DNA from: Micromonospora parva
Lineage (GTDB): Bacteria > Actinomycetota > Actinomycetes > Mycobacteriales > Micromonosporaceae
DNA length: 64,000 nt
NCBI RefSeq assembly: GCF_000718515.1
Contig: NZ_JNZS01000001.1
Coordinates: 248,001-312,000, forward strand
Direction: 5' to 3'
This document shows, in pieces, positions 20,771-50,985 of the stretch. Below the pieces are notes generated by a model. It was not told the DNA's origin. It saw only the letters and a list, made by a program, of their open reading frames with translations, and did not search any database. The number at the start of each line of letters is the position of its first letter. Within the stretch, counting starts at the first letter, position 1. Position numbers and translations under genes: made by a program.

Positions 20771-21769
20771 ATGGTGTTCTCCGACGCTCCGGTACTCGCC
20801 CGTCCGTCCGCACCACCGGCGCTGCCGAGCGGACCGATCGAGGTCACCGAGGCGTGGCTGCGTAACCGGCGGCTGTCCGAACACACCCGCGACGCCTACC
20901 GACGTGACGTCACCGGCTGGCTGCGTTGGTGCGCCGAGCGTGACCTCGACCCGCTGCGGGCCACGTTCCTGCACGTCAACGAATACGCCCGCGCCCTGGA
21001 GAACAGCGTCGGCGCCCGCAGCGGCCGCCCACTGACCCCGGCGACCGTCGCACGCCGGCTCTCGGCGCTGTCCAGTTGGTACGACTTCCTCGCCAAACTC
21101 GGTGCGGTACCGGCCAACCCGGTCGCCGGCGCCGACCGCCCCCGCGTCGACCGGGACCACTCCGCCACCGTCGGGCTCACCCCCGAGGAGGTGGACGCCC
21201 TCCTCAACGCCGCCGACGCCGACACCGGCGGGACCGCCGTCCGCAACCGGGCAGCGCTCGCGCTGCTGGCCGATCTGGGTCTGCGGGTCGGGGAGCTGAT
21301 CTCACTGGACCTGACCGACCTCGGCACCGAACGCGGCCACCGCAGCGTGCGCTTCGTCGGCAAGGGCGGCAAACAACGCCGCCGCGCCCTCACCCCCAGC
21401 GCCGGGCACGCCCTGGACGCCTACCTGGCCCAGCGGGCCGCCGCCACCGGCGTGCCGGTGGCGCAGCTGACCGGTCCACTGCTGGTCACCGCCAGCGGTG
21501 CCCGGCTGGACCGGCACTCGGTGTTCCGGATGGTCCGTCGGCTCGCCCGCGCCGCCGGCATCCCGGCCTGGGCGAAGCTGTCGCCACACTCGCTGCGACA
21601 CGCGTTCGCCACCACCGCCCGCTCCGAGGGCGTGCCGTTGGAGGACGTGCAGGACGCCATGGGGCACGCCGACCCGCGCACCACCCGCCGCTACGACCGG
21701 GACCGGCACAACCTCGACCGCGACCCGGCCTACGCGGTGTGGGCCGCCCGGTCGCGCCGCCGCGGCTGA
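20771..21769 (+). CDS. Tyrosine recombinase (XerC/D-like)
   Basis: 332 residues. An N-terminal SAM-like DNA-binding domain (about 25-110) precedes the catalytic domain. All active residues are present: Arg172 (GLRVGE), Lys198 (GKGGK), His273-x-x-Arg276 (HSLRH), His299 (GHAD) and Tyr308 (RRYDRD). No phage genes flank it, so it is either an orphan integrase or a Xer paralogue. The start lies just after the hsp20 terminator, so it needs its own promoter. Confidence 0.88.
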   Translation: MVFSDAPVLARPSAPPALPSGPIEVTEAWLRNRRLSEHTRDAYRRDVTGWLRWCAERDLDPLRATFLHVNEYARALENSVGARSGRPLTPATVARRLSALSSWYDFLAKLGAVPANPVAGADRPRVDRDHSATVGLTPEEVDALLNAADADTGGTAVRNRAALALLADLGLRVGELISLDLTDLGTERGHRSVRFVGKGGKQRRRALTPSAGHALDAYLAQRAAATGVPVAQLTGPLLVTASGARLDRHSVFRMVRRLARAAGIPAWAKLSPHSLRHAFATTARSEGVPLEDVQDAMGHADPRTTRRYDRDRHNLDRDPAYAVWAARSRRRG

Positions 21770-39671: not shown

Positions 39672-39797
39672 TCAGTGGGTGAACAGCTTCGCCGCGGTGA
39701 TGACGGTCTGCGCGACCCCGTAGCCGAGCAGCGCCGCCACCACCAACCAGGAGATCCACAACCGGGCCTGCTGCCCGGGACGGCTGTCCTCACTCAT
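39672..39797 (-). CDS. MFS transporter small subunit
   Basis: 41 residues: a hydrophilic N-terminus (MSEDSRPGQQARLW), then one membrane helix (ISWLVVAALLGYGVAQTVI) and a short tail. The ATG overlaps the stop of the OxlT-type transporter by 4 nt (ATGA), with GAGGAG 9 nt upstream. Small single-span proteins of this kind are found immediately after OxlT-family MFS genes, as recalled from family knowledge, and are annotated as small subunits. It probably stabilises or regulates the transporter. Confidence 0.8.
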   Translation of the reverse strand: MSEDSRPGQQARLWISWLVVAALLGYGVAQTVITAAKLFTH

Positions 39798-41224
39798 CGC
39801 GTACCACTCCTCTGCCTCGTCGTGTCCTCGTCCCGGTGCGCCGTCTCGTCGGCGCGCTGATCCGCCGGTGGTTCGTGGTAGCGCTGCGGCACCGGCCGGA
39901 CCAGCAGGTTCGCCGCGAAGCCCACCGCCAGCACCCCGACCATCGTGAACAGCGCCGGCCGGTACGCCGCGGCCGTCAGCGAGCCCGGCTCGCCCTGCGC
40001 GTCGAGGAACCCGTTGACGATCAGCGGACCCGCGATGCCCGCCGCCGACCAGGCGGTCAGCAGCCGCCCGTGGATCGCGCCGACCTGGAAGGTGCCGAAC
40101 AGGTCACGCAGGTACGCCGGCACCGTCGCGAACCCACCGCCGTAGAACGACAGGATCACGCACGCCAACAGCACGAACAGCGCCGTCGAGGTCTGCCCGA
40201 CGAGCGCCAGCAGCGCGTACAGCACCATGCCGACACCCAGGTACACCAGGTAGATGGGTTTGCGGCCGATGACGTCCGAGGTGGACGACCACACGAACCG
40301 GCCGGCCATGTTGAACAGCGACAGCAGGCCCACGAACCCGCCGGCCGCCGCGACGGTCACCGCCGAGGTGCCGTTGTCGCGGAAGAAGTCCTGGATCATC
40401 GGGCTGGCCTGTTCCAGGATGCCGATGCCGGCTGTCACGTTGCAGAACAGCACCACCCACAGCAGCCAGAACGAGCGGGTCTTCACCGCGTTCGCCGCCG
40501 ACACGTTCGCCGTGGTGACCAGCGGCTTCGCCGCCACGCTCGCCGGGTCGAAGCCGGCCGGACGCCAGTCCTGCGCCGGCACCCGCACGTTCGCCACCCC
40601 GAACATCATGATCACGAAGTAGCCCAGGCCGAGCGTGACGAACAGCCACACCAGGGCGCTGCCCGAGGCCGTCGACCCGGCGTTGGCCGGGTCGTAGCTG
40701 GCGTCGTAGAACGACAACAGTTGCCGGGACAGGGGAGAGGCGACCATCGCCCCACCACCGAATCCCATGATCGCCAGCCCGGTGGCCAGGCCCGGCCGGT
40801 CCGGGAACCACTTGATCAGGGTGGAGACGGGGGAGATGTAGCCGATGCCCAGGCCGATGCCGCCGAGCAACCCGTAGCCCAGATACAGCAACCACAGTTG
40901 CTTCGTGGCGATGCCCAGCGAACCCACCAGGAAACCCGCCGCCCAGAAACAGGCCGAGACGAACATGGCCTTGCGCGGCCCGTTCGCCTCCACCCAGGTC
41001 CCGGCGACGGCCGCGGACAACCCGAGCATCACGATCGCGATGCTGAAGATCACCCCGATCGCCGTCTGGCTGGTGTCGAAGTGGGCGATCAGGGAGTTCT
41101 TGTAGACGCTGGTGGCGTAGACCTGACCGATGCAGAGGTGGATGGCCAACGCCGCCGGGGGAATGAGCCAGCGGCTGTAGCCGGGCGGCGCGACGGTGTG
41201 CCGACGGTCGAGTGCGGAAAGCAT
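39794..41224 (-). CDS. OxlT-family MFS antiporter
   Basis: 476 residues, 12 membrane helices, ATG at 41224 with GAGAGGAAG. PPAALAIHLCIGQVYATSVY and GIGLGIGYISPVSTLIKWFPDR are characteristic of the oxalate/formate antiporter family in actinobacteria. The C-terminal tail is charged. The real substrate may be a mono- or dicarboxylate. It forms an operon with the 41-residue small subunit by a 4-nt overlap. Confidence 0.88.
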   Translation of the reverse strand: MLSALDRRHTVAPPGYSRWLIPPAALAIHLCIGQVYATSVYKNSLIAHFDTSQTAIGVIFSIAIVMLGLSAAVAGTWVEANGPRKAMFVSACFWAAGFLVGSLGIATKQLWLLYLGYGLLGGIGLGIGYISPVSTLIKWFPDRPGLATGLAIMGFGGGAMVASPLSRQLLSFYDASYDPANAGSTASGSALVWLFVTLGLGYFVIMMFGVANVRVPAQDWRPAGFDPASVAAKPLVTTANVSAANAVKTRSFWLLWVVLFCNVTAGIGILEQASPMIQDFFRDNGTSAVTVAAAGGFVGLLSLFNMAGRFVWSSTSDVIGRKPIYLVYLGVGMVLYALLALVGQTSTALFVLLACVILSFYGGGFATVPAYLRDLFGTFQVGAIHGRLLTAWSAAGIAGPLIVNGFLDAQGEPGSLTAAAYRPALFTMVGVLAVGFAANLLVRPVPQRYHEPPADQRADETAHRDEDTTRQRSGTR

Positions 41225-41368
41225 GCGCTGCTTCCTCTCGGTGAGGACGAGAAACGTCGCCCCCAACGTGCCCAGCGCACTCGTGAGCGGCAAACCTCAC
41301 CGTCGCCGGACGGTCGTTCCGCTGAGCTGAGCGGTCAGTCAGCCACCCGCGCGCCGCGGTGTCGGCAG

Positions 41369-42748
41369 CTAGCGCAGGTCCGGGACATGCCAGCCGCCGG
41401 CCAGCGCGTCGGCGTCCGCCGGACCCCAGCTGCCCTTGTCGTACGACCGCACGGGCGTCGGCAGATCCAGGATCGGCTCGACGATGCGCCACTCCTGCTC
41501 GATCGTCTCGGCCCGCGCGAAGCGCAGGTGCTGCCCGTCCATGGCGTCGTCGAGCAGCCGCTCGTACGCCTCCTGGCGACGACCGAGAGCGGCGCCGAAG
41601 TCGACGGACAGGTCCACCGGTCGGCTCGCCACCTCGGCGCCCGGGCTCTTCGCCTGGATCGACATGGTGATGCCGTCACCGCGCCCCAGCCGGAAACGCA
41701 GCAGGTTCGCCGCGGTCGCCGTGCCCCGCTCGGCCGGAATCAGCGAGCGCTGCGGCTGCTTGAACTCGACCACGACCTCCGTCGCCGTCCCCGGCAGGGA
41801 CTTGCCGGTACGCAGGTAGAACGGCACACCCGCCCAGCGGGGCGAGTCGACGGTCAACCGGGTCGCCACGAACGTCTCGGTGTTGGAATCCGGGGCCACG
41901 CCCGGCTCGTCGCGGTAGCCGGCGTACTGCCCCCGGACGGTGGACTGCGGCGACAGCGGCGCGATCTGCCGCAGCACCGCGGCCTCCGCCTCCCGGAACG
42001 CCACGGTGTCCTCGCTGGCCGGCGCCTCCATCGCGATGAGCGCGACGACCTGCAGGATGTGGTTCTGCAGCACGTCCCGGGTCGCGCCCACCGTGTCATA
42101 GAAGCCGGCCCGACCCTGCGTGCCGAAACCCTCGGCGAGGGTGACCTGGATGTTGTCGATGTGCTCGTTGTTCCACAACGGCTCGAACAGCCGGTTGGCG
42201 AACCGGAAGGCGTAGAGCCCCTCGACGGCTTCCTTGCCGAGGTAGTGGTCGATACGGAACACCCGCTCCGGCGCGAAGGCCGCGCCCAGCGTGCGATCCA
42301 GCTCGCGGGAGGACTCCAGGTCACGCCCGAACGGCTTCTCCACGATCACCCGACCCCGGTCGGCCAGACCCACGGCCGCCAGGCCCTCGACGACGGAACC
42401 GAACACCGCCGGAGGGATCGCCAGGTAGAAGACCGGCCGCTCGGCGTCGCGCAGCCGCTCCGCCAGCCGCTCGTACGTCGCCGGGTCGGCGTAGTTGCCG
42501 GAGATCATCGAGAGGTTGTCCGCGAGCCGGTCGAAGGTCTCGTCGTCGATCTCGTCGTTGGCCTCGGTGACCGACTTGCGCGCCATGGTGACCAGTTGCT
42601 GATCATCCCAGGGGGAGCGGGCCACGCCGATCACCGGGACGTCGAGGCGGTCGCGCCGGGTCAACTCGTACAGCGCCGGGAACAGCTTCTTCGAGACGAG
42701 ATCTCCCGTGACGCCGAACAGCACTACCGCGTCTGAGCGCATGTGCAT
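41369..42748 (-). CDS. zwf: Glucose-6-phosphate dehydrogenase
   Basis: 459 residues. First step of the oxidative pentose phosphate pathway, producing NADPH. LFGVTGDLVSKKLFPALYEL binds NADP; RIDHYLGKE (near residue 165) is the active-site signature, with catalytic His in the FDxH-like RNHILQ... region. GTG/ATG choices at the start (MHMRSD) differ by two residues. It stands alone, without the usual pgl-tal-tkt neighbours, so may be an accessory isozyme. Confidence 0.93.
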   Translation of the reverse strand: MHMRSDAVVLFGVTGDLVSKKLFPALYELTRRDRLDVPVIGVARSPWDDQQLVTMARKSVTEANDEIDDETFDRLADNLSMISGNYADPATYERLAERLRDAERPVFYLAIPPAVFGSVVEGLAAVGLADRGRVIVEKPFGRDLESSRELDRTLGAAFAPERVFRIDHYLGKEAVEGLYAFRFANRLFEPLWNNEHIDNIQVTLAEGFGTQGRAGFYDTVGATRDVLQNHILQVVALIAMEAPASEDTVAFREAEAAVLRQIAPLSPQSTVRGQYAGYRDEPGVAPDSNTETFVATRLTVDSPRWAGVPFYLRTGKSLPGTATEVVVEFKQPQRSLIPAERGTATAANLLRFRLGRGDGITMSIQAKSPGAEVASRPVDLSVDFGAALGRRQEAYERLLDDAMDGQHLRFARAETIEQEWRIVEPILDLPTPVRSYDKGSWGPADADALAGGWHVPDLR

Positions 42749-42939: not shown

Positions 42940-44556
42940 ATGACGAGGCCTGGAGGTACCGTGCGTCGCCGACACACCACACGGCTGCTGGCCATAGCCG
43001 CACTCGCGCTCCCACTCACCCTGCCTGCCACACCCGCCCCCGCCGCGGCACCCACCACACCAGCCCGGCAGCTCAGCGACGTCATCCCCGCACCCGTCGA
43101 AACCCGACCCGACGCACACAACACCTTCCGGATCACCCCGCTGACCGTCATCCGCACCACCCCCGGCTCCACCGCCGCCCGGCAGATCGGCCACCAACTC
43201 GCCACCACCCTGCGCCCCGCCACCGGCCACCCCCTGCCCGTCCTGCCCGTACGCTCCACCCCGCTACCCGAGATCGCCCTGCTCATCGAGGGCACCGACA
43301 ACCGCATCGGCCAGCAGGGCTACCAACTCGACGTCACCCGCCGCGGCGTCACCATCCGCGCCAACACCCCCGCCGGCCTGTTCGCCGGCACCCAGACACT
43401 GCGCCAACTGCTCCCCGCCCAGATCGAGGCACCCGACCGGCAGCGCATCACCTGGACAGTCCCCGGCGGACGAATCATCGACTACCCACGCTTCGCCTAC
43501 CGGGGTGCGATGCTCGACCTCGCCCGGCACTTCCACACAGTGGACGACATCACCGCCTACGTGGACCTGCTCAGCCAGTACAAAATCAACTACCTGCACC
43601 TGCACCTGACCGACGACCAGGGCTGGCGCATCCAGATCGACTCCTGGCCCCGCCTCACCACCGTCGGCGGCGGACCCGGCACCGGAGTCGACGGCGCCGG
43701 CCCCGGATACCTCACCAAGGCCGACTACCAGGCCGTCGTCGCCTACGCCGCCGCGCGACACATCACGATCATCCCCGAGATCGACATGCCCGGGCACACC
43801 AACGCCGCCCAGTCGACATACCCCGAACTCAACTGCGACGGCGTCGCGCCGCCCCCGCGCACCGACATGGCGGTCGGCTACAGCTCCCTGTGCATCAACG
43901 ACGAACTCACCTACCGATTCGTCGAGGACGTCATCCGCGAGGTCGCCGCCATCACCCCCGGACCGTTCCTGCACATTGGCGGCGACGAAGCCCACGCGAC
44001 CACCGACGAGGACTACCGCACCTTCATGAACCGGGTCCTGCCCCTGGTCGCCAAGTACGGCAAACGCGCCTCCGGATGGAACGAGATCACCCAGGCCGAC
44101 CCGCCCACCGACGCTGTCGCCCAGTTCTGGGGCACCGGCACCACCAACGCCAGCCTCGCCGCGGCCGCCGCCCGCGGCAACAAAATCATCATGTCCCCGG
44201 CCAACAAGGCCTACCTGGACATGAAGTACGACGCCAACACCCGCCTCGGCCTCCGCTGGGCCGGCCTGATCGAGGTGTCCGACGCGTACGGCTGGGACCC
44301 CGCCACCCGGGTCACCGGCGTCGGCGAGAACGCCATCCTCGGCGTCGAGGCACCCCTGTGGTCCGAAACCCTGCGCACCCTCGATGACATCGAATACATG
44401 GCCTTCCCCCGCCTACCCGCGATCGCCGAACTCGGCTGGTCCACCTCCGCCAGCCACGACTGGGAATCGTTCCGAACCCGGCTGGGGGAGCAGGCACCCC
44501 GCTGGCGACTGCAACAGGTCGACTTCTACCCGTCCCCACAGGTGCCCTGGCGCTGA
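42940..44556 (+). CDS. Secreted beta-N-acetylhexosaminidase, GH20
   Basis: 538 residues. The signal peptide has a basic start (VRRRHTTR), hydrophobic core and APAAA cleavage region. The GH20b-like N-terminal domain is followed by the TIM barrel; HIGGDEAH (345-352) holds the catalytic Asp349-Glu350 pair. LHLHLTDDQGWRIQIDSWP (shortened) and IPEIDMPGH are further motifs. It releases terminal GlcNAc/GalNAc from chitin fragments, glycans or peptidoglycan. ATG at 42940 follows GAAGG; GTG at 42961 is an alternative. Confidence 0.93.
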   Translation: MTRPGGTVRRRHTTRLLAIAALALPLTLPATPAPAAAPTTPARQLSDVIPAPVETRPDAHNTFRITPLTVIRTTPGSTAARQIGHQLATTLRPATGHPLPVLPVRSTPLPEIALLIEGTDNRIGQQGYQLDVTRRGVTIRANTPAGLFAGTQTLRQLLPAQIEAPDRQRITWTVPGGRIIDYPRFAYRGAMLDLARHFHTVDDITAYVDLLSQYKINYLHLHLTDDQGWRIQIDSWPRLTTVGGGPGTGVDGAGPGYLTKADYQAVVAYAAARHITIIPEIDMPGHTNAAQSTYPELNCDGVAPPPRTDMAVGYSSLCINDELTYRFVEDVIREVAAITPGPFLHIGGDEAHATTDEDYRTFMNRVLPLVAKYGKRASGWNEITQADPPTDAVAQFWGTGTTNASLAAAAARGNKIIMSPANKAYLDMKYDANTRLGLRWAGLIEVSDAYGWDPATRVTGVGENAILGVEAPLWSETLRTLDDIEYMAFPRLPAIAELGWSTSASHDWESFRTRLGEQAPRWRLQQVDFYPSPQVPWR

Positions 44557-44578
44557 GCCGTACCGCGCCGCTGTTGGT

Positions 44579-44605
44579 GGGCACCGGCCGTTTCGGCCAG
44601 TGCCC
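44579..44605 (+). terminator. Hairpin after the hexosaminidase gene
   Basis: GGGCAC and GGCC (44579-44584, 44586-44589) pair with GGCC and GTGCCC (44595-44598, 44600-44605); one C/A mismatch and loop GTTTC. Confidence 0.7.
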
Positions 44606-44719
44606 AACGCAACACCGGGGTCCAGAGCCGGCCCCTCGACCTCGACGGCGCGCGGGCCGGCCACCGCCCATGAGACGGTGAAGCAGCCAACCACCGCCGA
44701 CTCCAACAAGGACCCCGCC

Positions 44720-45502
44720 ATGAACCTGGCGTTCGACCAATCAGCAGACACTGGACCAGCGGTGGTATGCCTACCGATGTTCAGCATGAGCCGCGCCGCC
44801 ACGGCCGCCGCCCTCAGCCCCGCCCTCGCCGGCGCGGGCCTCCGCGAGATCTACCTGGACCTGCCCGGCCACGGAGACACCCCCGCACACTGCCCACCCA
44901 CCTCCCAGGCGACGCTGGACACCGTCTGCGCCTGGCTCGACCAGCACCTCGACGCGCCAGCCCTGCTCGCCGGCAGCTCCTACGGCGCGTACCTGGCCGC
45001 CGGCATCGCCCGCCAACGACCCGACCTCGTCCGCGGCCTGCTCCTCGTCTGCCCCGGCGTCACCATCGCCCGCCACACCCGGACCCTGCCCGCCGACCCA
45101 CCACTCGACGCACCCACCGGCTGGCTCGACGACGCCCCCGCCGCCCTGCACGAACACCTCGACGCCGCACTGGGCCACCGCACCCCGGCCGTCGTCGCGA
45201 CGGTGCTGGCGGCACTGAACTCCGGCGGCCCCGGCGACCCGGCCTTCCAAGAGGAACTCCAGACCGGGCCCGGCTACGCACTACCCAACGAGGACGCCGA
45301 CGTCGTCTTCGACGGCCCGGTCAGCGTGATCACCGGCCGACAGGACGGAATCGTCGGCTACGCCGACCAGTTCCGCGCCATGCGCCACTACCCGCGCGGC
45401 ACCTATACGGTGATCGACGCGGCCGGGCACTACCTGCCGTACGAACAACCCGCCCTGCTGCGATCGCTCACCCAGGACTGGCTGCACCGCACCCGAGACT
45501 GA
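44720..45502 (+). CDS. Alpha/beta hydrolase
   Basis: 260 residues. The nucleophile elbow is GSSYGAY, preceded by YLDLPGHGDTP and the oxyanion region; GRQD supplies the acidic residue and AGHYLPYE the catalytic His. No signal peptide, so cytosolic. The family includes esterases, peptidases and haloperoxidase-like proteins; the substrate is unknown. ATG at 44720 follows AAGGA. Confidence 0.85.
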   Translation: MNLAFDQSADTGPAVVCLPMFSMSRAATAAALSPALAGAGLREIYLDLPGHGDTPAHCPPTSQATLDTVCAWLDQHLDAPALLAGSSYGAYLAAGIARQRPDLVRGLLLVCPGVTIARHTRTLPADPPLDAPTGWLDDAPAALHEHLDAALGHRTPAVVATVLAALNSGGPGDPAFQEELQTGPGYALPNEDADVVFDGPVSVITGRQDGIVGYADQFRAMRHYPRGTYTVIDAAGHYLPYEQPALLRSLTQDWLHRTRD

Positions 45503-45566
45503 GACGCGTCAGTGGGGGAGCGGACCCCGCCCACGAGGTCACGGGGTTCGCCCAGCCTCCCATCAC

Positions 45567-48500
45567 TCACCCGAAGCGTTTGATGCGCACCCCGTCCGGG
45601 GGCGCGGTATCGGCCAGCTCGACGCTTCGCGAGAGATGCACGGTCATGGGTTTTCCGTGTAGCGGCGTCAGGTCGAGTCCCGGCACCGAACCATAGATCC
45701 GGAGATCCTTGAGCTCCGTCAGTCCGGCAAGCGGAGTGAGGTCGAACAAGTGCTGATGGTTGCCGATGCTCAGCCAGCCAAGCTGAGGTAGCCCGGCCAA
45801 CGGACTCAGGTCGGTGACGGGTGTCCCTTCAATCACCAACTCGGTCAGTGTGTCGATCGAGGCCAGCGCGGCCAGGTCGGTCAGCCAGGCGCACCCGCCC
45901 AACGACACGTACGTGACTTTCAGGTGGCGGAGCCTCACCGCCAGCTCACGAATCCCGCCGGCAGGCTCCTCGCTGGCATAGAGCGCCAGCTGCGTCAGGT
46001 TCTGCAGAGGATCGAGCATCGCCGGATCCCACAGCGGGGATGGACTGCAGCTCAGGAATCTCAGCGCGGTGAGCTCAGCGAAGAGACTGTCGCGAACCTC
46101 CACACCGCCCAAGGCAAGCCAGTGCAGCTGCCGCAAAGAGGCGAGCGCGATGAGGTCTTGATCAGGTGCAAGGCCCCACAAGGCCAGGTTGGTAAGTCTG
46201 GGCAACCCTCGCAGCGAGGAGAGATTCAACAGTTGCTGATCGGCATCCAACCAAATACTGACCAGGTCGACATTCCTGGCCAGATGCCCAAGGTCGCCAA
46301 CAACCCCTCTCGCGGTCAAGTGAACTTCGGTCAGATGCGGCACGTCCGACAACTGGGCCAGGTCCACCTTCTGATCGGTGATAACGACCGTCTTGGCGAG
46401 ATGACGCAGCCGGGGCAGCGCGGGGAGCAGGGCTGCACTGCGGATCGTTGCCATGCCACCCTCAAGCGGGGCGTCAGCGAGGACCCGGTCGGCGTAGTCG
46501 GCGGGGTCGAAGTACTCCCACGCCGTGATGAGCTGCTGCTGGACGCGAGGTCGCGGGTCGGTGCCGTAGCGGGCGAGGGTGGCGAGCGCATCGGGACCGT
46601 TGACCAAAGCCACAGCCCTGACCGTGGCGGCGGCCTGGGCCTCACTCAACGTGCTGAGATCCGCCGGCAGCTCGGCGAGCAGCGGTTCTCCCACTGCCGC
46701 CAGGGACCGGGCCTCGGCGACGGACCGGGGCAGCAGCTCACGCAGGTGGGAACGGATCCGGCCAAGGACTTCCGGCTCGACCGCTGGCGCGGTTTCCAGG
46801 CACGCCGCAGCGAGCAGCCGCAACCTTCGGGCCTGCTTCGGTCGCTCGGCGGCGAGCGTGAGCAGACCGGCGAGGAGCTGCCTGCGGACCGGCGCGTTGG
46901 CGTGACCGGCGGCCAGAATGATGGTTTCGCGCCAGGTGTCGAGATGGGCGTGCTCAAGCAGGGCACCGGTGTGCCCCTGGTCGGCGGCCTCCCGGGCAGC
47001 CAGGTATTCCTGAAAGGTGCGATGGACGAAGTCGATGCGGTCGGGCACCGGCTCACGCAGGACCCCACTGCGTTGGATCATGTGCTCGAGCACGGCGGCG
47101 ACGGGGGCGGTGATGTGCCGGATCCCGGCCAACCGATGCGCGAAGCGCTGCGTCGCCTCGGCGCGGGTGAGCTCGGTGCGGCTGTTCTGGGTCATCCACC
47201 AGGCGACCTCCTGCAACAGCTGCGCCTGGTCGCGGCTGGTCAGTTCCGGCAGCGCGGTGGGAACTCCGCGTTGGGAGTCGCGGCGGTGCAGCAGCATGTC
47301 GATGGCAGCCTGGTAGATGTCCATCCGGTTGCGGGGCAGGTTGCTGTCCCGGTCCAGGTTCAGCGCGCACAGCATCGCGCAGAGCAGCGGGCTGCCGGCG
47401 AGGTTCTGCAGGTGGGCGCTGCCGTCGAGCTGGGCGAGCAGCCGCTGTTCGTAGCCGGGCAGCAGATGGGGTTCGCAGGGCAGGTCGGCGGCGCGCCGGA
47501 CGGCCTCGTGCCAGTGCCGGATCAGCGCCTTGACGTCGGCCGGCCCCATCCGCTCCAAAAACACCGAGGTGAACCCCTCAGTGTCCAGCCACCGGGCCGA
47601 CGCCGCAGCCGGCCGGGAGGTGACCACGACCCGCAGGTCCGGGTAGGCGGACAGCAGGCCGTGCAGCCAGTCACGGACCGTCCGCCGTTGGCCCTCGGGC
47701 ACCTCGTCGACGCCGTCGACCAACAGGATCGCCCCGATGCCGAGTTGGCGGTGCACCCAACCGGGAGGCATCAGCCCGGCGATCGTGGCGGCGATCAGGT
47801 CGAGGAACCGTTGCGGGGGAGGCAACGGCTGGGCGACATGGTCCCGCAGCCGGATCAGGAACGGGGTACGCCCGTTCCAGGTGTCGAGTTCTCCGGTGAA
47901 CCCGTGCCGGGCCGCGGTGACCGCGATCCACTGCATCAGAGTGGTCTTGCCGGAGCCGGCGTCACCACGCAGCAGGACCCGCGCCGCGTCGCCAAGGGCC
48001 TGCTCGGCCCGCACCGAAGCGCTGTCACCACCACCGCCGTCGGAGCGCAACAGGCCGGGACCCCAGCGGAACCCACCGCGGCGCAGGCCACGGGTGGTGC
48101 CGCCGGTGACGGCCAGGCTGATGTACGCGATGCTCAACGGGGTACGCAACCGGTAGCGGTGCACGTCGACGCCGAACAGCTCCAGATGATCCAGCACGGT
48201 GAGCAGGTGGGCCAGGTACCGGGTCCGGAACTGGGCGTCATGACTGGTCCCGGTCGGGGCGTCCAGACTGGTCACCGGCAGCCGGGCCAGGACCTGGGTC
48301 AGGCTGTCGGCCACCGCGGACAGCCGTTCCAGGGTCTGCACGGTGGCGCGACCCTGGAACGGGGGGAGTTGCACCACCAACTGGGTCAGGCAGGTGCAGC
48401 ACTCGTCGAGGACCCGCCCGTACAGGTGTACTGCCGCCTCGCTCAGACCCGCCCGCGCGGGAACGTCGGGCAGTTGCCGGCGCAGTCGGGTGGCCATCAG

Positions 48501-48842
48501 CGCGGGGTCGACGTCGTCGGCGAACACCGCGGCGTCGGACAGGTCCGCGTCGCGCAGCGTGTCGGCCACCGCGTTCAGGGCGGCGGCGATCTCGTTGTCG
48601 GGCAGCGCCGGCTCCCGGCGGCGAACCAGTGGCTGCAGGCGCTCGTAGACGGTGTCGACGATGTCGTCCAACCGCCGGCCCGCCCGGCGCAGGCCGAGGT
48701 CATCGGTGATCCCGGAACCGATCAGCTCGATGAGCGGCGTCTCACGTTCCCGGTGTTCCCGGCGGCGTCCCAGCCACCGTTTCACCGCCGGTGTCACCAC
48801 CGAGCCGGCCAGGCGCAGCAACGCCGTCTCGACCATCCCCAC
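45567..48842 (-). CDS. NACHT NTPase with N-terminal helical domain and C-terminal LRRs (bacterial NLR-like)
   Basis: 1,091 residues, GTG at 48842 behind AGGAGGAG. Residues 1-190 are helical (TALLRLAGSVVTPAVKRWLG...), like NACHT N-terminal helical domains. NACHT: Walker A GDAGSGKTTL (about 290-299), Walker B ILLVDGVDEVPE (about 370-381) with the NACHT DGxDE signature, sensor VVVTSRP (about 405), and the winged-helix zone IDFVHRTFQEYLAARE (about 605-620). Residues about 815-1075 are leucine-rich repeats, e.g. LSPLAGLPQLGWLSIGN and LTPLAGLTELKDLRIYG. Bacterial NACHT proteins of similar type protect against phage. No effector enzyme fold or membrane helix is visible; the trigger and effector are unknown. 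It could also be a signalling STAND ATPase unrelated to defence. Confidence 0.9.
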   Translation of the reverse strand: MGMVETALLRLAGSVVTPAVKRWLGRRREHRERETPLIELIGSGITDDLGLRRAGRRLDDIVDTVYERLQPLVRRREPALPDNEIAAALNAVADTLRDADLSDAAVFADDVDPALMATRLRRQLPDVPARAGLSEAAVHLYGRVLDECCTCLTQLVVQLPPFQGRATVQTLERLSAVADSLTQVLARLPVTSLDAPTGTSHDAQFRTRYLAHLLTVLDHLELFGVDVHRYRLRTPLSIAYISLAVTGGTTRGLRRGGFRWGPGLLRSDGGGGDSASVRAEQALGDAARVLLRGDAGSGKTTLMQWIAVTAARHGFTGELDTWNGRTPFLIRLRDHVAQPLPPPQRFLDLIAATIAGLMPPGWVHRQLGIGAILLVDGVDEVPEGQRRTVRDWLHGLLSAYPDLRVVVTSRPAAASARWLDTEGFTSVFLERMGPADVKALIRHWHEAVRRAADLPCEPHLLPGYEQRLLAQLDGSAHLQNLAGSPLLCAMLCALNLDRDSNLPRNRMDIYQAAIDMLLHRRDSQRGVPTALPELTSRDQAQLLQEVAWWMTQNSRTELTRAEATQRFAHRLAGIRHITAPVAAVLEHMIQRSGVLREPVPDRIDFVHRTFQEYLAAREAADQGHTGALLEHAHLDTWRETIILAAGHANAPVRRQLLAGLLTLAAERPKQARRLRLLAAACLETAPAVEPEVLGRIRSHLRELLPRSVAEARSLAAVGEPLLAELPADLSTLSEAQAAATVRAVALVNGPDALATLARYGTDPRPRVQQQLITAWEYFDPADYADRVLADAPLEGGMATIRSAALLPALPRLRHLAKTVVITDQKVDLAQLSDVPHLTEVHLTARGVVGDLGHLARNVDLVSIWLDADQQLLNLSSLRGLPRLTNLALWGLAPDQDLIALASLRQLHWLALGGVEVRDSLFAELTALRFLSCSPSPLWDPAMLDPLQNLTQLALYASEEPAGGIRELAVRLRHLKVTYVSLGGCAWLTDLAALASIDTLTELVIEGTPVTDLSPLAGLPQLGWLSIGNHQHLFDLTPLAGLTELKDLRIYGSVPGLDLTPLHGKPMTVHLSRSVELADTAPPDGVRIKRFG

Positions 48843-48979
48843 GCCGCGTCTCCTCCTGGTCTGCTGTGAGGTCTGACTGGTGCGCGTGCCAACAGTTCAC
48901 GAGACAGCGACCACTGACGACGCTACGTCGTGCGGGGATTCATGGCTGTCCCCTGTCCAGCCGTTCCCACCGCGATTCG

Positions 48980-48993
48980 ATAATGCACATTAT
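48980..48993. promoter_or_regulatory. AT-rich palindrome upstream of the NACHT gene
   Basis: ATAATG, CA, CATTAT, 138 bp upstream of the GTG start. The surrounding 35 bp are the most AT-rich of the region, so this is the likely promoter/operator for the NACHT-LRR gene. Confidence 0.5.
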
Positions 48994-49030
48994 GTAAAGT
49001 ACCGTTATCTGACGGTCCCCTCGGCAGTGG

Positions 49031-49786
49031 TCACTCGCGGGTCAGTCCGGGCGGGCACGCGTCCTCGTCCAGGCTGACGGGGCGGGCGGCGACCAGCGGA
49101 TTGCGCTGCAGGCGGGCAACCACAGCGGCGCTGGCGCCGAAGTCGGTCCAGGTGTCGTCCCACAGCGCGGAGACGAGCCAGGAGCGATCCGCCGGAAAAA
49201 ACAGATCCGGCAGCGGGCCATCGCCGCGCATGTGACCGACCCTCCAGGTCAGTGCCTGTTCAGGTCCGGCTTCGACCAGCACGTACGGATAGTCCGAGTA
49301 GAGCGACACCCTCGGGGCGCGCGGGAAGACGACGTCGTGGGCGCCGGTGTCGAGGTAGCCCAGCCACCAGGGTTGGTCCGGGGTGCACGCGACCAACTCG
49401 TCCACCACGGCACGTTCGTGGGCGGCGAAACCGACGCCGTCGGGCGGATGGAACGTGGCGTACGCGTCGAACACCGGCGGGATCGCGGCGGTGATCGAGA
49501 GGCCCTGCGTGGTCTGCCCGGCGAACCAGGCGACGTCGCCGGCGGTGCCGATCCGCCAGCGGCGCCCGTCCTTGTCGACCTCTTTGAGTGGCGTCACGGT
49601 CGATGCGTCCGCGCCGGGCTGCCTGATGAGGCCCGGCGACGCGTAGCGAGCCCACCCGGGTCGTCCGGCGGCCCGCCACTGGTGCCCTTCGGGGCAGATC
49701 AGATCCGTCGGGCCGCCCGGCTCCCGGTCGGCGGTGGCCGTACCGGGCCGACCACAGCGCGGGCAGGTGGTGACGGGCGACGTCAT
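49031..49786 (-). CDS. Hypothetical protein with N-terminal zinc finger
   Basis: 251 residues. The N-terminal CPRCGRPGTATADREPGG...CPEGHQW looks like a C-x2-C...C-x2-H zinc ribbon of a substrate-recognition type. The rest is an alpha/beta domain (VDKDGRRWRIGTAGDVAWFAG, shortened; PWWLGYLDTGAHDVVFPRAP) with no recognised family. It is upstream of the NACHT gene on the same strand, separated by 188 bp with a palindrome. A functional link is possible but unproven. Confidence 0.6.
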   Translation of the reverse strand: MTSPVTTCPRCGRPGTATADREPGGPTDLICPEGHQWRAAGRPGWARYASPGLIRQPGADASTVTPLKEVDKDGRRWRIGTAGDVAWFAGQTTQGLSITAAIPPVFDAYATFHPPDGVGFAAHERAVVDELVACTPDQPWWLGYLDTGAHDVVFPRAPRVSLYSDYPYVLVEAGPEQALTWRVGHMRGDGPLPDLFFPADRSWLVSALWDDTWTDFGASAAVVARLQRNPLVAARPVSLDEDACPPGLTRE

Positions 49787-49965
49787 GCCGCGCAGGATAC
49801 GGGCTCCTCGATCGACTTCACTCGGTTTCGCCCGCAGCGGCCGGCGGTGGGTAACGCCGGTCGGCTGCTGTCGAGGGTTCTACAGCGTCGGCACCTGCCC
49901 TGGGTCGGTCGGCTCCCCCTCGCCCGGCGGTCGTCCGCCGCCACTTCCCGGGAACGCGAAAATGC

Positions 49966-49985
49966 TGCATAATATCCCTTATGCA
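49966..49985. promoter_or_regulatory. Palindrome over the recombinase start codon
   Basis: TGCATAA (49966-49972), 6 bp, TTATGCA (49979-49985). The ATG at 49981 lies inside the right arm, so a protein bound here, or a hairpin, would block translation or a leaderless start. No Shine-Dalgarno sequence precedes the ATG. Confidence 0.55.
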
Positions 49986-50985
49986 TGACAAAAAGGACGA
50001 ATCGCTCGGGGTGCTGATCGAGGAGTTCCTGACCGCTCGCGCCACCGGCAAGCCCTCCCCCCACACCCTGGCTGCCTACCGTCGGGACCTGTACGCGGTG
50101 GCCGCCCTGGTCGCCGACGGTGACGCCACTCCCCTCCCCCTCGACGACCTGTCGATCACCGACCTCTCCCCCCGCGTCATGCGGGCGGCCTTCGCCCGCT
50201 TCGCCGCTCCCCGGGCGCCCGCGTCGGTGCACCGGGCCTGGTCCACCTGGAACAGTTTCTTCACCTTCCTGGTCGCCGACGGGGTGGTGGCGGGCAACCC
50301 GATGCCGGCGGTCGGACGGCCCCGGGCGCTCCTCCCCCAGCCGAAGCCGCTGCGCGGCGCGGACACCCCCGAGGTGCTGCTCGCGGCGGTCGCCCGCGAC
50401 GACGGCCGGCAGCGTGACCCGTGGCCGGAGCGGGACGTGGCGGTGCTGGCGGTGGCGCTGTGCGCGGGGCTGCGCCTGTCGGAGCTGCTGGCGTTGCGGG
50501 TCGGCTCGCTGGCGGGTCGGCCTGGTGAGCGGCGCATCGAGGTGCTCGGCAAGGGTGGGCGGCCCCGGGTGGTGCCGATCGAGGCGGACCTGGACCGGGT
50601 GCTGCGGGACTACCTGGACAGTCGGGTGCGGCGCTTCGGTTCGCGGTCGGTGCGGCCGGACTCGGCGTTGCTGGTGGATCGGCGTGGTGAGCCGCTGCGC
50701 CGGGGTGGGCTGCAGTATCTGGTGGAGTCGTGTTTTCGGCGGGCGGGCGTCGGTGACCGGGTGCCGCGGGGAGCGCGGTTGCACGCGTTGCGGCACACCT
50801 TCGCGACCCGGTTGGCCGAGGACGGGGCGAGCGCGGCAGAGATCATGCGGTTGCTGGGGCACGCGTCGTTGGCGTCGTCGCAGACGTACATCGAGGTGAC
50901 GGCCGTTCAGCAGCGCGACGCGGTGCGGGCCAACCGCACCAACCGGGCGTTGGCCGCGCTGGTGCCGGTGCGGGAGGAGCGGTGA
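49981..50985 (+). CDS. Tyrosine recombinase (integrase-like)
   Basis: 334 residues. The core-binding domain (about 15-110) is followed by the catalytic domain with Arg165 (GLRLSE), Lys191 (GKGGR), His268-x-x-Arg271 (HALRH), His294 (GHASLASSQ) and Tyr303. All are present, so it should be active. It resembles XerC/D in size, but its position beside a NACHT gene and its palindromic start suggest a mobile-element role. No att sites were recognised. Confidence 0.85.
   Translation: MHDKKDESLGVLIEEFLTARATGKPSPHTLAAYRRDLYAVAALVADGDATPLPLDDLSITDLSPRVMRAAFARFAAPRAPASVHRAWSTWNSFFTFLVADGVVAGNPMPAVGRPRALLPQPKPLRGADTPEVLLAAVARDDGRQRDPWPERDVAVLAVALCAGLRLSELLALRVGSLAGRPGERRIEVLGKGGRPRVVPIEADLDRVLRDYLDSRVRRFGSRSVRPDSALLVDRRGEPLRRGGLQYLVESCFRRAGVGDRVPRGARLHALRHTFATRLAEDGASAAEIMRLLGHASLASSQTYIEVTAVQQRDAVRANRTNRALAALVPVREER

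Follow-up and report, generated by a model that had tools for sequence, protein, structure and literature searches.

What is the large NACHT protein encoded beside a tyrosine recombinase gene in Micromonospora parva, and do the palindrome, the recombinase and the zinc-finger gene next to it belong to the same system? We examined this question in a 64,000-nucleotide stretch of the genome (RefSeq assembly GCF_000718515.1, contig NZ_JNZS01000001.1, positions 248,001 to 312,000), referred to here as the window, whose numbering is used for all coordinates. Our analysis indicates, with a probability of about 70%, that the protein is an intracellular immune receptor of the bacterial NLR type encoded by one gene, which is carried as cargo beside the chromosomal dif site.

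An NNH1-NACHT-LRR protein of the bacterial NLR type

The gene and its domains are located as follows:
45567..48842, minus strand: NNH1-NACHT-LRR protein (bacterial NLR; LRR, leucine-rich repeat), an open reading frame (ORF) of 1,091 amino acids (aa) with a GTG start
48285..48821, minus strand: NNH1 helical domain, residues 8-186, putative effector or signalling end (Pfam PF22733, 179.1 bits)
47502..47981, minus strand: NACHT NTPase, residues 288-447 (Pfam PF05729, 65 bits; invariant Walker A, Walker B and sensor residues)
45648..46412, minus strand: hypervariable LRRs, residues 811-1065 (matches to solved LRR domains, structure model and alignments)

The protein runs from NNH1 through NACHT and helical domains to about 11 LRRs, which confirms the order of helical N-terminus, NACHT and LRR proposed in the initial annotation. 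NNH1 covers its full Pfam profile (1-177) against a cut-off of 27 bits and is thus a member of that family; a profile search of the M. parva genome returned the same bases (G000:C1:296285-296821). NACHT likewise exceeds its cut-off of 26.7 bits, with Walker A and B intact, and the motifs GDAGSGKTT, LLVDGVDE and TSRP are all present. Across 70 aligned sequences (41-95% identity), residues G296, G298, K299, T301, D376, D379, E380, R410 and H607 are invariant. In animal NLRs, the winged-helix histidine holds ADP. Because Walker A, Walker B, R410 and H607 are unchanged in all 70 sequences, the NTPase switch should be functional. Directly upstream of the GTG start lies AGGAGGAG, and the N-terminus VG[M/V]VETALLR is common to the four alleles compared. 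Helix 1 gave no strong signal of an amphipathic membrane helix (moment of at most 0.37 in 18-residue windows).

Pfam LRR models stay under their cut-offs on the C-terminal stretch (LRR_4, 16.4 versus 27 bits). The stretch matches solved LRR domains, including that of Roco (5il7, 5.8e-26) and that of internalin A, and the predicted structure places 11 LRR strands between residues 817 and 1049, with a predicted local distance difference test score (pLDDT) mostly of 85-96. Because of these matches and modelled strands, the concern that the region might be a misread repeat family can be set aside.

The NLR-like layout is also borne out by the predicted fold, for which Foldseek ranks NLRC4 first (5.3e-17), followed by NOD2 and NLRP3, and a VIA-align comparison with NLRC4 covers model residues 199-1070. 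The protein shares with these animal receptors an NTPase module followed by LRRs, but the listed alignments reach only 11-21% identity, Foldseek template modelling scores are 0.22-0.39 in the top rows, and the whole-chain root-mean-square deviation exceeds 13 Å, so the domains agree and their arrangement does not. By sequence search, its LRRs are nearest to those of Roco and internalin proteins rather than to those of animal NLRs, and NNH1 stands where the animal proteins carry CARD or PYD. Among bacterial NLRs and bNACHT proteins, the likeness consists of a central NACHT with intact motifs, a C-terminal LRR and an N-terminal non-NTPase domain; bNACHT25 has a PD-(D/E)XK nuclease at its N-terminus, whereas the Micromonospora protein has NNH1. 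From the actinobacterial NNH1-NACHT-LRR proteins, annotated as “NACHT domain-containing protein,” it differs in sequence only, and it is a member of their family.

Bacterial proteins that combine NACHT and LRR were already termed bona fide NLRs by Conte et al. 2025 (PMC12169576), who also report having found such proteins earlier. The M. parva protein has the structure by which that paper defines a bacterial NLR, namely NACHT and LRR in one protein. Given this precedent and the 1,606 family matches described below, the suggestion of a novel immune system is not supported: the receptor belongs to an already described kind, and the points of interest are the variability of its sensor and its setting beside dif.

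Variation concentrated in the leucine-rich repeats

Averaged over 25 close relatives, sequence identity to the query amounts to 81% in NNH1, 83% in the linker, 86% in NACHT, 88% in the winged-helix and helical region, 79% in residues 651-810, 52% in the LRR and 66% in the tail. Column entropy climbs from about residue 781-811 and averages 1.47 in the LRR, compared with at most 0.58 in any 255-residue window of residues 1-810 (23 sequences, at least 68% identity). Between residues 811 and 1050, the hydrophobic scaffold has an entropy of 0.63 versus 1.89 for other positions and 2.22 for those in or beside strands, a contrast that is partly built in because the split between scaffold and other positions was drawn from the same alignment. 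In a second clade of 13 Actinoallomurus proteins, entropy is 1.12 in the LRR, 0.75 in the tail and 0.19-0.50 in the other domains. By these alignments, the LRR is strongly hypervariable in two clades and the rest of the protein is conserved, an observation that is new here. Hypervariable LRRs in bacterial NLRs are not named in the titles or abstract openings listed in our literature searches; diversity-generating retroelements are reported to act on putative conflict systems of multicellular bacteria (PMC10907252).

The same pattern is seen at finer scale among alleles of one locus. The alleles of Micromonospora inaquosa and Micromonospora arida are 92% and 91% identical, respectively, to that of the window, and the three pairwise comparisons give ratios of nonsynonymous to synonymous substitution (dN/dS) of 0.47, 0.54 and 0.59 in the LRR, versus 0.02-0.23 in the other domains and 0.25-0.66 in the short tail. 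The LRR, which makes up 23% of the length, holds 84 of 108, 74 of 114 and 83 of 113 of the amino-acid-changing differences. The reading frame is intact in all four alleles read, and control genes beside the NACHT gene have dN/dS values of 0.09-0.40. As far as can be judged from the alignments, this variation fits a sensor that tracks changing targets.

Several results weigh against this view of the LRR. For all classes and pairs compared, its dN/dS lies below 1, on which ground a claim of positive selection was dropped, and strand positions (0.46, 0.70, 0.65) do not consistently exceed the remaining LRR positions (0.52, 0.62, 0.95). The zinc-ribbon gene, at 0.37-0.40, is the highest of the controls, so the LRR is not alone in having raised ratios. 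Against a 61% identical relative from Micromonospora H61, the contrast is weak (LRR 0.34, NNH1 0.33, others 0.16-0.21), in a comparison where the synonymous rate (dS) exceeds 0.8 throughout and is near saturation. Moreover, between the M. parva allele and that of genome G028, dS itself is raised in the LRR, at 0.354 versus 0.04-0.19 elsewhere and 0.32 in the tail, so the difference there may be inflated by a diverged LRR acquired through recombination. Since dN/dS is below 1 and strand positions are not consistently higher, positive selection is unsupported and relaxed constraint has to be considered: LRR divergence would then reflect loosened constraint and recombination in a drifting accessory gene, with no current selected role as a sensor. 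The ratios below 1, the raised dS and the weak contrast with H61 are all compatible with such drift. We nevertheless regard it as quite unlikely, given that the frame is intact in four alleles, that the scaffold class within the LRR has a dN/dS of 0.18-0.24, far from neutral, and that the second clade repeats the pattern.

Distribution of the family

A protein search with the NACHT-LRR query, which scored the 7,993 candidates with most words in common, returned 1,606 proteins at E<=0.001. The 120 relatives listed are 42-95% identical to the query; most are 1,080-1,130 aa long and carry NNH1 and NACHT, many have LRR models, and all named hosts are actinobacterial (actinomycetes), many of them developmentally complex. 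A 34% identical relative occurs in Dictyobacter. Within the genus, relatives were detected in 10 of 121 genomes at E<=1e-30 and closer ones in 4 of 160 at E<=1e-200, the M. parva genome counted in both; up to six or four candidates per genome, respectively, were scored, so that paralogue counts are lower bounds. The gene is sporadic in Micromonospora.

Distant relatives (32-40% identity) are found in 14 plasmid records of Streptomyces and Embleya, with 80% query coverage in two cases. In addition, a relative of 37% identity has a pSAM2-type replication initiator gene about 3 kb away. Phage carriage of the family was considered and discarded, as no relative was confirmed in one scan of viral contigs and two phage records match the LRR part alone. 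Elsewhere in the M. parva genome, four more NACHT matches over the Pfam cut-off were observed on contigs C15, C14, C7 and C2 (150 of 269 candidates scored); NNH1 was found once, versus several NACHT-domain matches.

A chromosomal dif site and the recombinase encoded beside it

Three elements lie upstream of the NACHT gene:
48973..49000, plus strand: chromosomal dif site (11+6+11), identified by likeness to the Frankia alni dif, one copy per genome and a position opposite dnaA
49031..49786, minus strand: protein of 251 aa with a zinc ribbon and a conserved domain of about 180 aa (sequence comparison)
49981..50985, plus strand: genus-core Xer-type tyrosine recombinase beside dif (Pfam and genome comparison)

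The initial annotation had noted an AT-rich palindrome in the NACHT promoter. The palindrome is real, with one match in the window and none in 100 shuffles. It precedes the NACHT start codon by 130 bp and is 30 bp away from the zinc-ribbon stop codon. With dif-like arms and a shared 6-bp centre, it is identical at 23 of 28 positions to the dif of Frankia alni as printed in Kono et al. 2011 (PMC3025954), whose main text does not mention Micromonospora. Exactly one copy (up to 3 mismatches) is present in 118 of 121 genomes, and a control pattern, the site reversed, in none of them. The mean distance of the site from dnaA is 0.482 genome lengths in 33 single-contig genomes, most of whose lengths were rounded to 0.1 Mb, and all but one of these (0.419) reach at least 0.45. 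Judged by its sequence and position, the palindrome is the chromosomal dif site. A role as operator of the NACHT promoter was rejected, since loci that lack NACHT have the same site 3' of their zinc-ribbon gene; it was seen within 149 nucleotides 3' of that gene in 19 of 20 loci, and about 210 bp before it in the twentieth (G119).

The gene previously described as an orphan recombinase also exists, but its link to a mobile element does not stand. It is present in 116 of 121 genomes rather than being patchy and travelling with cargo, occurs as one copy in nearly all of them, and has full-length matches outside the M. parva genome that are 76-96% identical; its start lies 299-1,411 bp from dif in all 33 single-contig genomes. 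Rather than the integrase of a mobile element, it is a Xer-type recombinase that belongs to the core genome of the genus and whose gene adjoins dif. The M. parva genome has XerD-like (305.7 bits, under the curated cut-off of 329.6) and XerC-like genes elsewhere, so the dif-linked enzyme is a further Xer-type recombinase. The adjacency of recombinase gene and dif recalls the single-recombinase systems XerS/difSL and XerH/difH, reviewed in PMC5357621. However, difSL has an 11-bp centre and the Micromonospora site an ordinary one of 6 bp, and a single-recombinase system would have the sole Xer of its genome, whereas the M. parva genome has other Xer-like genes, which places the dif-linked enzyme outside that class. 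Among the best-ranked matches of our literature searches, no paper on a dif-linked Xer in Micromonospora was found. Entry of cargo by Xer recombination at dif was also rejected, since each genome with a match has a single dif copy, as does the window.

An inverted repeat, TGCATAA-TATCCC-TTATGCA (49960-49995), overlaps the start codon of the recombinase gene and is kept nearly letter for letter in 22 loci; the CATAAT just before the ATG suggests a leaderless promoter. A second recombinase of the Xer/phage-integrase family (20771-21769, plus strand, 332 aa, Pfam 2.5e-30) is encoded about 28 kb from the dif-linked one.

The zinc-finger gene was correctly recognized as a gene, and its presumed linkage to NACHT was not upheld. 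Its product has an N-terminal Cys/Cys...Cys/His ribbon followed by the domain of about 180 aa. The product fits no Pfam family, and its model (pLDDT 72.6) retrieved nothing from Foldseek at E<=0.001. A search yielded 1,854 relatives, many without the ribbon and many encoded away from the recombinase. A role as partner of NACHT was rejected because the gene is widespread and does not track NACHT (relatives in 55 of 121 genomes versus 10 of 121); in 18 fetched loci, it adjoins dif without NACHT. One source labels a relative (P0070) as a SUKH-3 immunity protein, a label that was not confirmed.

These observations bear on whether the NACHT gene, the zinc-ribbon gene, the palindrome and the recombinase form one mobile defence module. 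All four are adjacent in the window and, as far as the contigs extend, in M. inaquosa and M. arida. Yet the recombinase is nearly always a single copy in almost every genome, the palindrome is a dif site present once per genome, the zinc-ribbon gene keeps its place at dif without NACHT, and a 61% relative in genome G029 is on a different contig from recombinase and dif. Such a module is therefore highly improbable, and the conserved linkage of NACHT, zinc-ribbon gene and integrase for which a neighbourhood survey had been proposed is absent, as the latter two recur without NACHT. The NACHT system does not include the dif site, the Xer or the zinc-ribbon gene.

The variable interval beside dif

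Further features of the locus are:
44720..45502, plus strand: alpha/beta hydrolase bounding the variable interval on the left (start picked by eye within a longer ORF, 44384-45502)
45503..48972, no strand: variable cargo interval from the hydrolase to dif, holding the NACHT gene here (locus comparison)
39794-41293: major facilitator superfamily transporter (Pfam)
41369-42748: a gene recognized by eye, which we take to be zwf

We fetched 20 loci from the 116 genomes with the recombinase, 18 of them picked because the zinc-ribbon gene was near, and searched them with the window genes by tblastn. A recurring order was found: hydrolase, variable interval, zinc-ribbon gene and Xer, joined in 17 of the 20 by a fasciclin and an M14 peptidase gene; the zinc-ribbon gene was missing in two loci and the hydrolase not seen in three. 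In the 15 loci where both were detected, including one (L100) where the hydrolase match was limited to its end, the interval measures 69-9,451 bp, three being under 100 bp. It is filled by the NACHT gene in the window, in M. inaquosa, whose contig stops before the recombinase, and in M. arida, whose contig stops within it. Within this variable interval at the side of the chromosomal dif, the NACHT gene is thus a sporadic, accessory cargo gene.

A simple frame-composition caller yielded 45 occupant ORFs from 16 loci. By Pfam, the other occupants are mostly metabolic, lanthipeptide, regulatory or transport genes (25 of 36 families viewed), for instance transporters, lanthipeptide synthetase, mycothiol transferase and glyoxalase; there are also two protein kinases. 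PADLOC matches to PD-T4-6, mads and other models each involve at most 4 of the 45 ORFs (best 5.7e-24). The interval was accordingly rejected as a defence island. In L093 and L110, the interval left of dif holds similar proteins of 865-885 aa, each followed by two more similar proteins; two RamC/LanC-type lanthipeptide synthetases and two ABC transporter membrane regions among the 45 cargo ORFs probably come from these loci.

Known defence neighbours, as expected in a defence island, were not clearly found among the 10 genes flanking the NACHT gene. Around 12 relatives outside the dif locus, several of them in loci that are close kin, no conserved partner was established; their 119 neighbouring ORFs gave PADLOC matches to 14 families, each in at most 5 ORFs. 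At one of these loci, L112 in Micromonospora H61, a tetratricopeptide repeat protein with a weak STAND match adjoins a Trypco2 gene, and the N-terminal part of a 401-aa neighbour matches PADLOC endonuclease effector models (best 1.6e-19), a setting more defence-like than that of the window.

Immune receptor or host regulator

Several further findings speak against an immune role. The other cargo at the same address is mostly not defence-like, and the 10 flanking genes of the window include no clear known defence gene by PADLOC 2023, the sole match being weak (8.4e-6) and confined to the helix-turn-helix end of a LuxR-type response regulator. The NACHT-LRR protein itself has no strong match in PADLOC 2023, which may lack models for such proteins, and matches the NCBIfam antiphage EruA model only weakly (26.7 bits versus a cut-off of 1,000). 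Whole-length structural alignments start at about residue 199, outside NNH1, and residues 1-22 of the model are mostly of low confidence.

Alternatively, the protein could be a non-immune, STAND-type NACHT that regulates host development or physiology, with an LRR that responds to endogenous ligands and varies with lineage-specific host partners. This would account for the absence of defence neighbours in the window and for named hosts that are actinomycetes, many with complex development. We consider it unlikely: a gene with a relative in so few congeners is not needed for their shared development, and LRR divergence between close species at one locus fits a constant internal ligand poorly.

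An immune receptor of the bacterial NLR type is the explanation we favour, and an anti-phage function is likely as a prediction from sequence. The domain order, the intact NTPase residues, the NLR-like predicted fold, the sporadic presence and the hypervariability centred on the LRR are direct observations. We infer the working of the receptor as follows: the variable LRR fan would sense a molecule of an invader, probably a phage, or its effect; this sensing would free the ADP-locked NACHT and winged-helix module, which would swap its nucleotide and oligomerise; and the clustered NNH1 helical ends, acting as executioner, would shut down or kill the cell, or recruit a partner with that effect, thereby defending against phage. 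More tentatively, the NNH1-NACHT-LRR genes could form an allelic series with a fixed chromosomal address and a constant signalling engine, in which phage selection diversifies or swaps the LRR between strains, as in plant and animal NLR loci; the dif side may favour such swaps via termination-linked recombination. We regard this extension as possible but doubtful.

No bacterial proteins come closer in layout to animal and plant NLRs than the LRR-bearing bacterial NLRs, and our literature searches listed few works on them. The identification of dif corrects a plausible misreading, since a recombinase and a palindrome beside an immune gene need not mean a mobile element. Finally, three natural alleles with a near-constant engine, differing mainly in the LRR, offer a ready-made test of whether phage specificity is borne by the LRR, as in plant NLRs.

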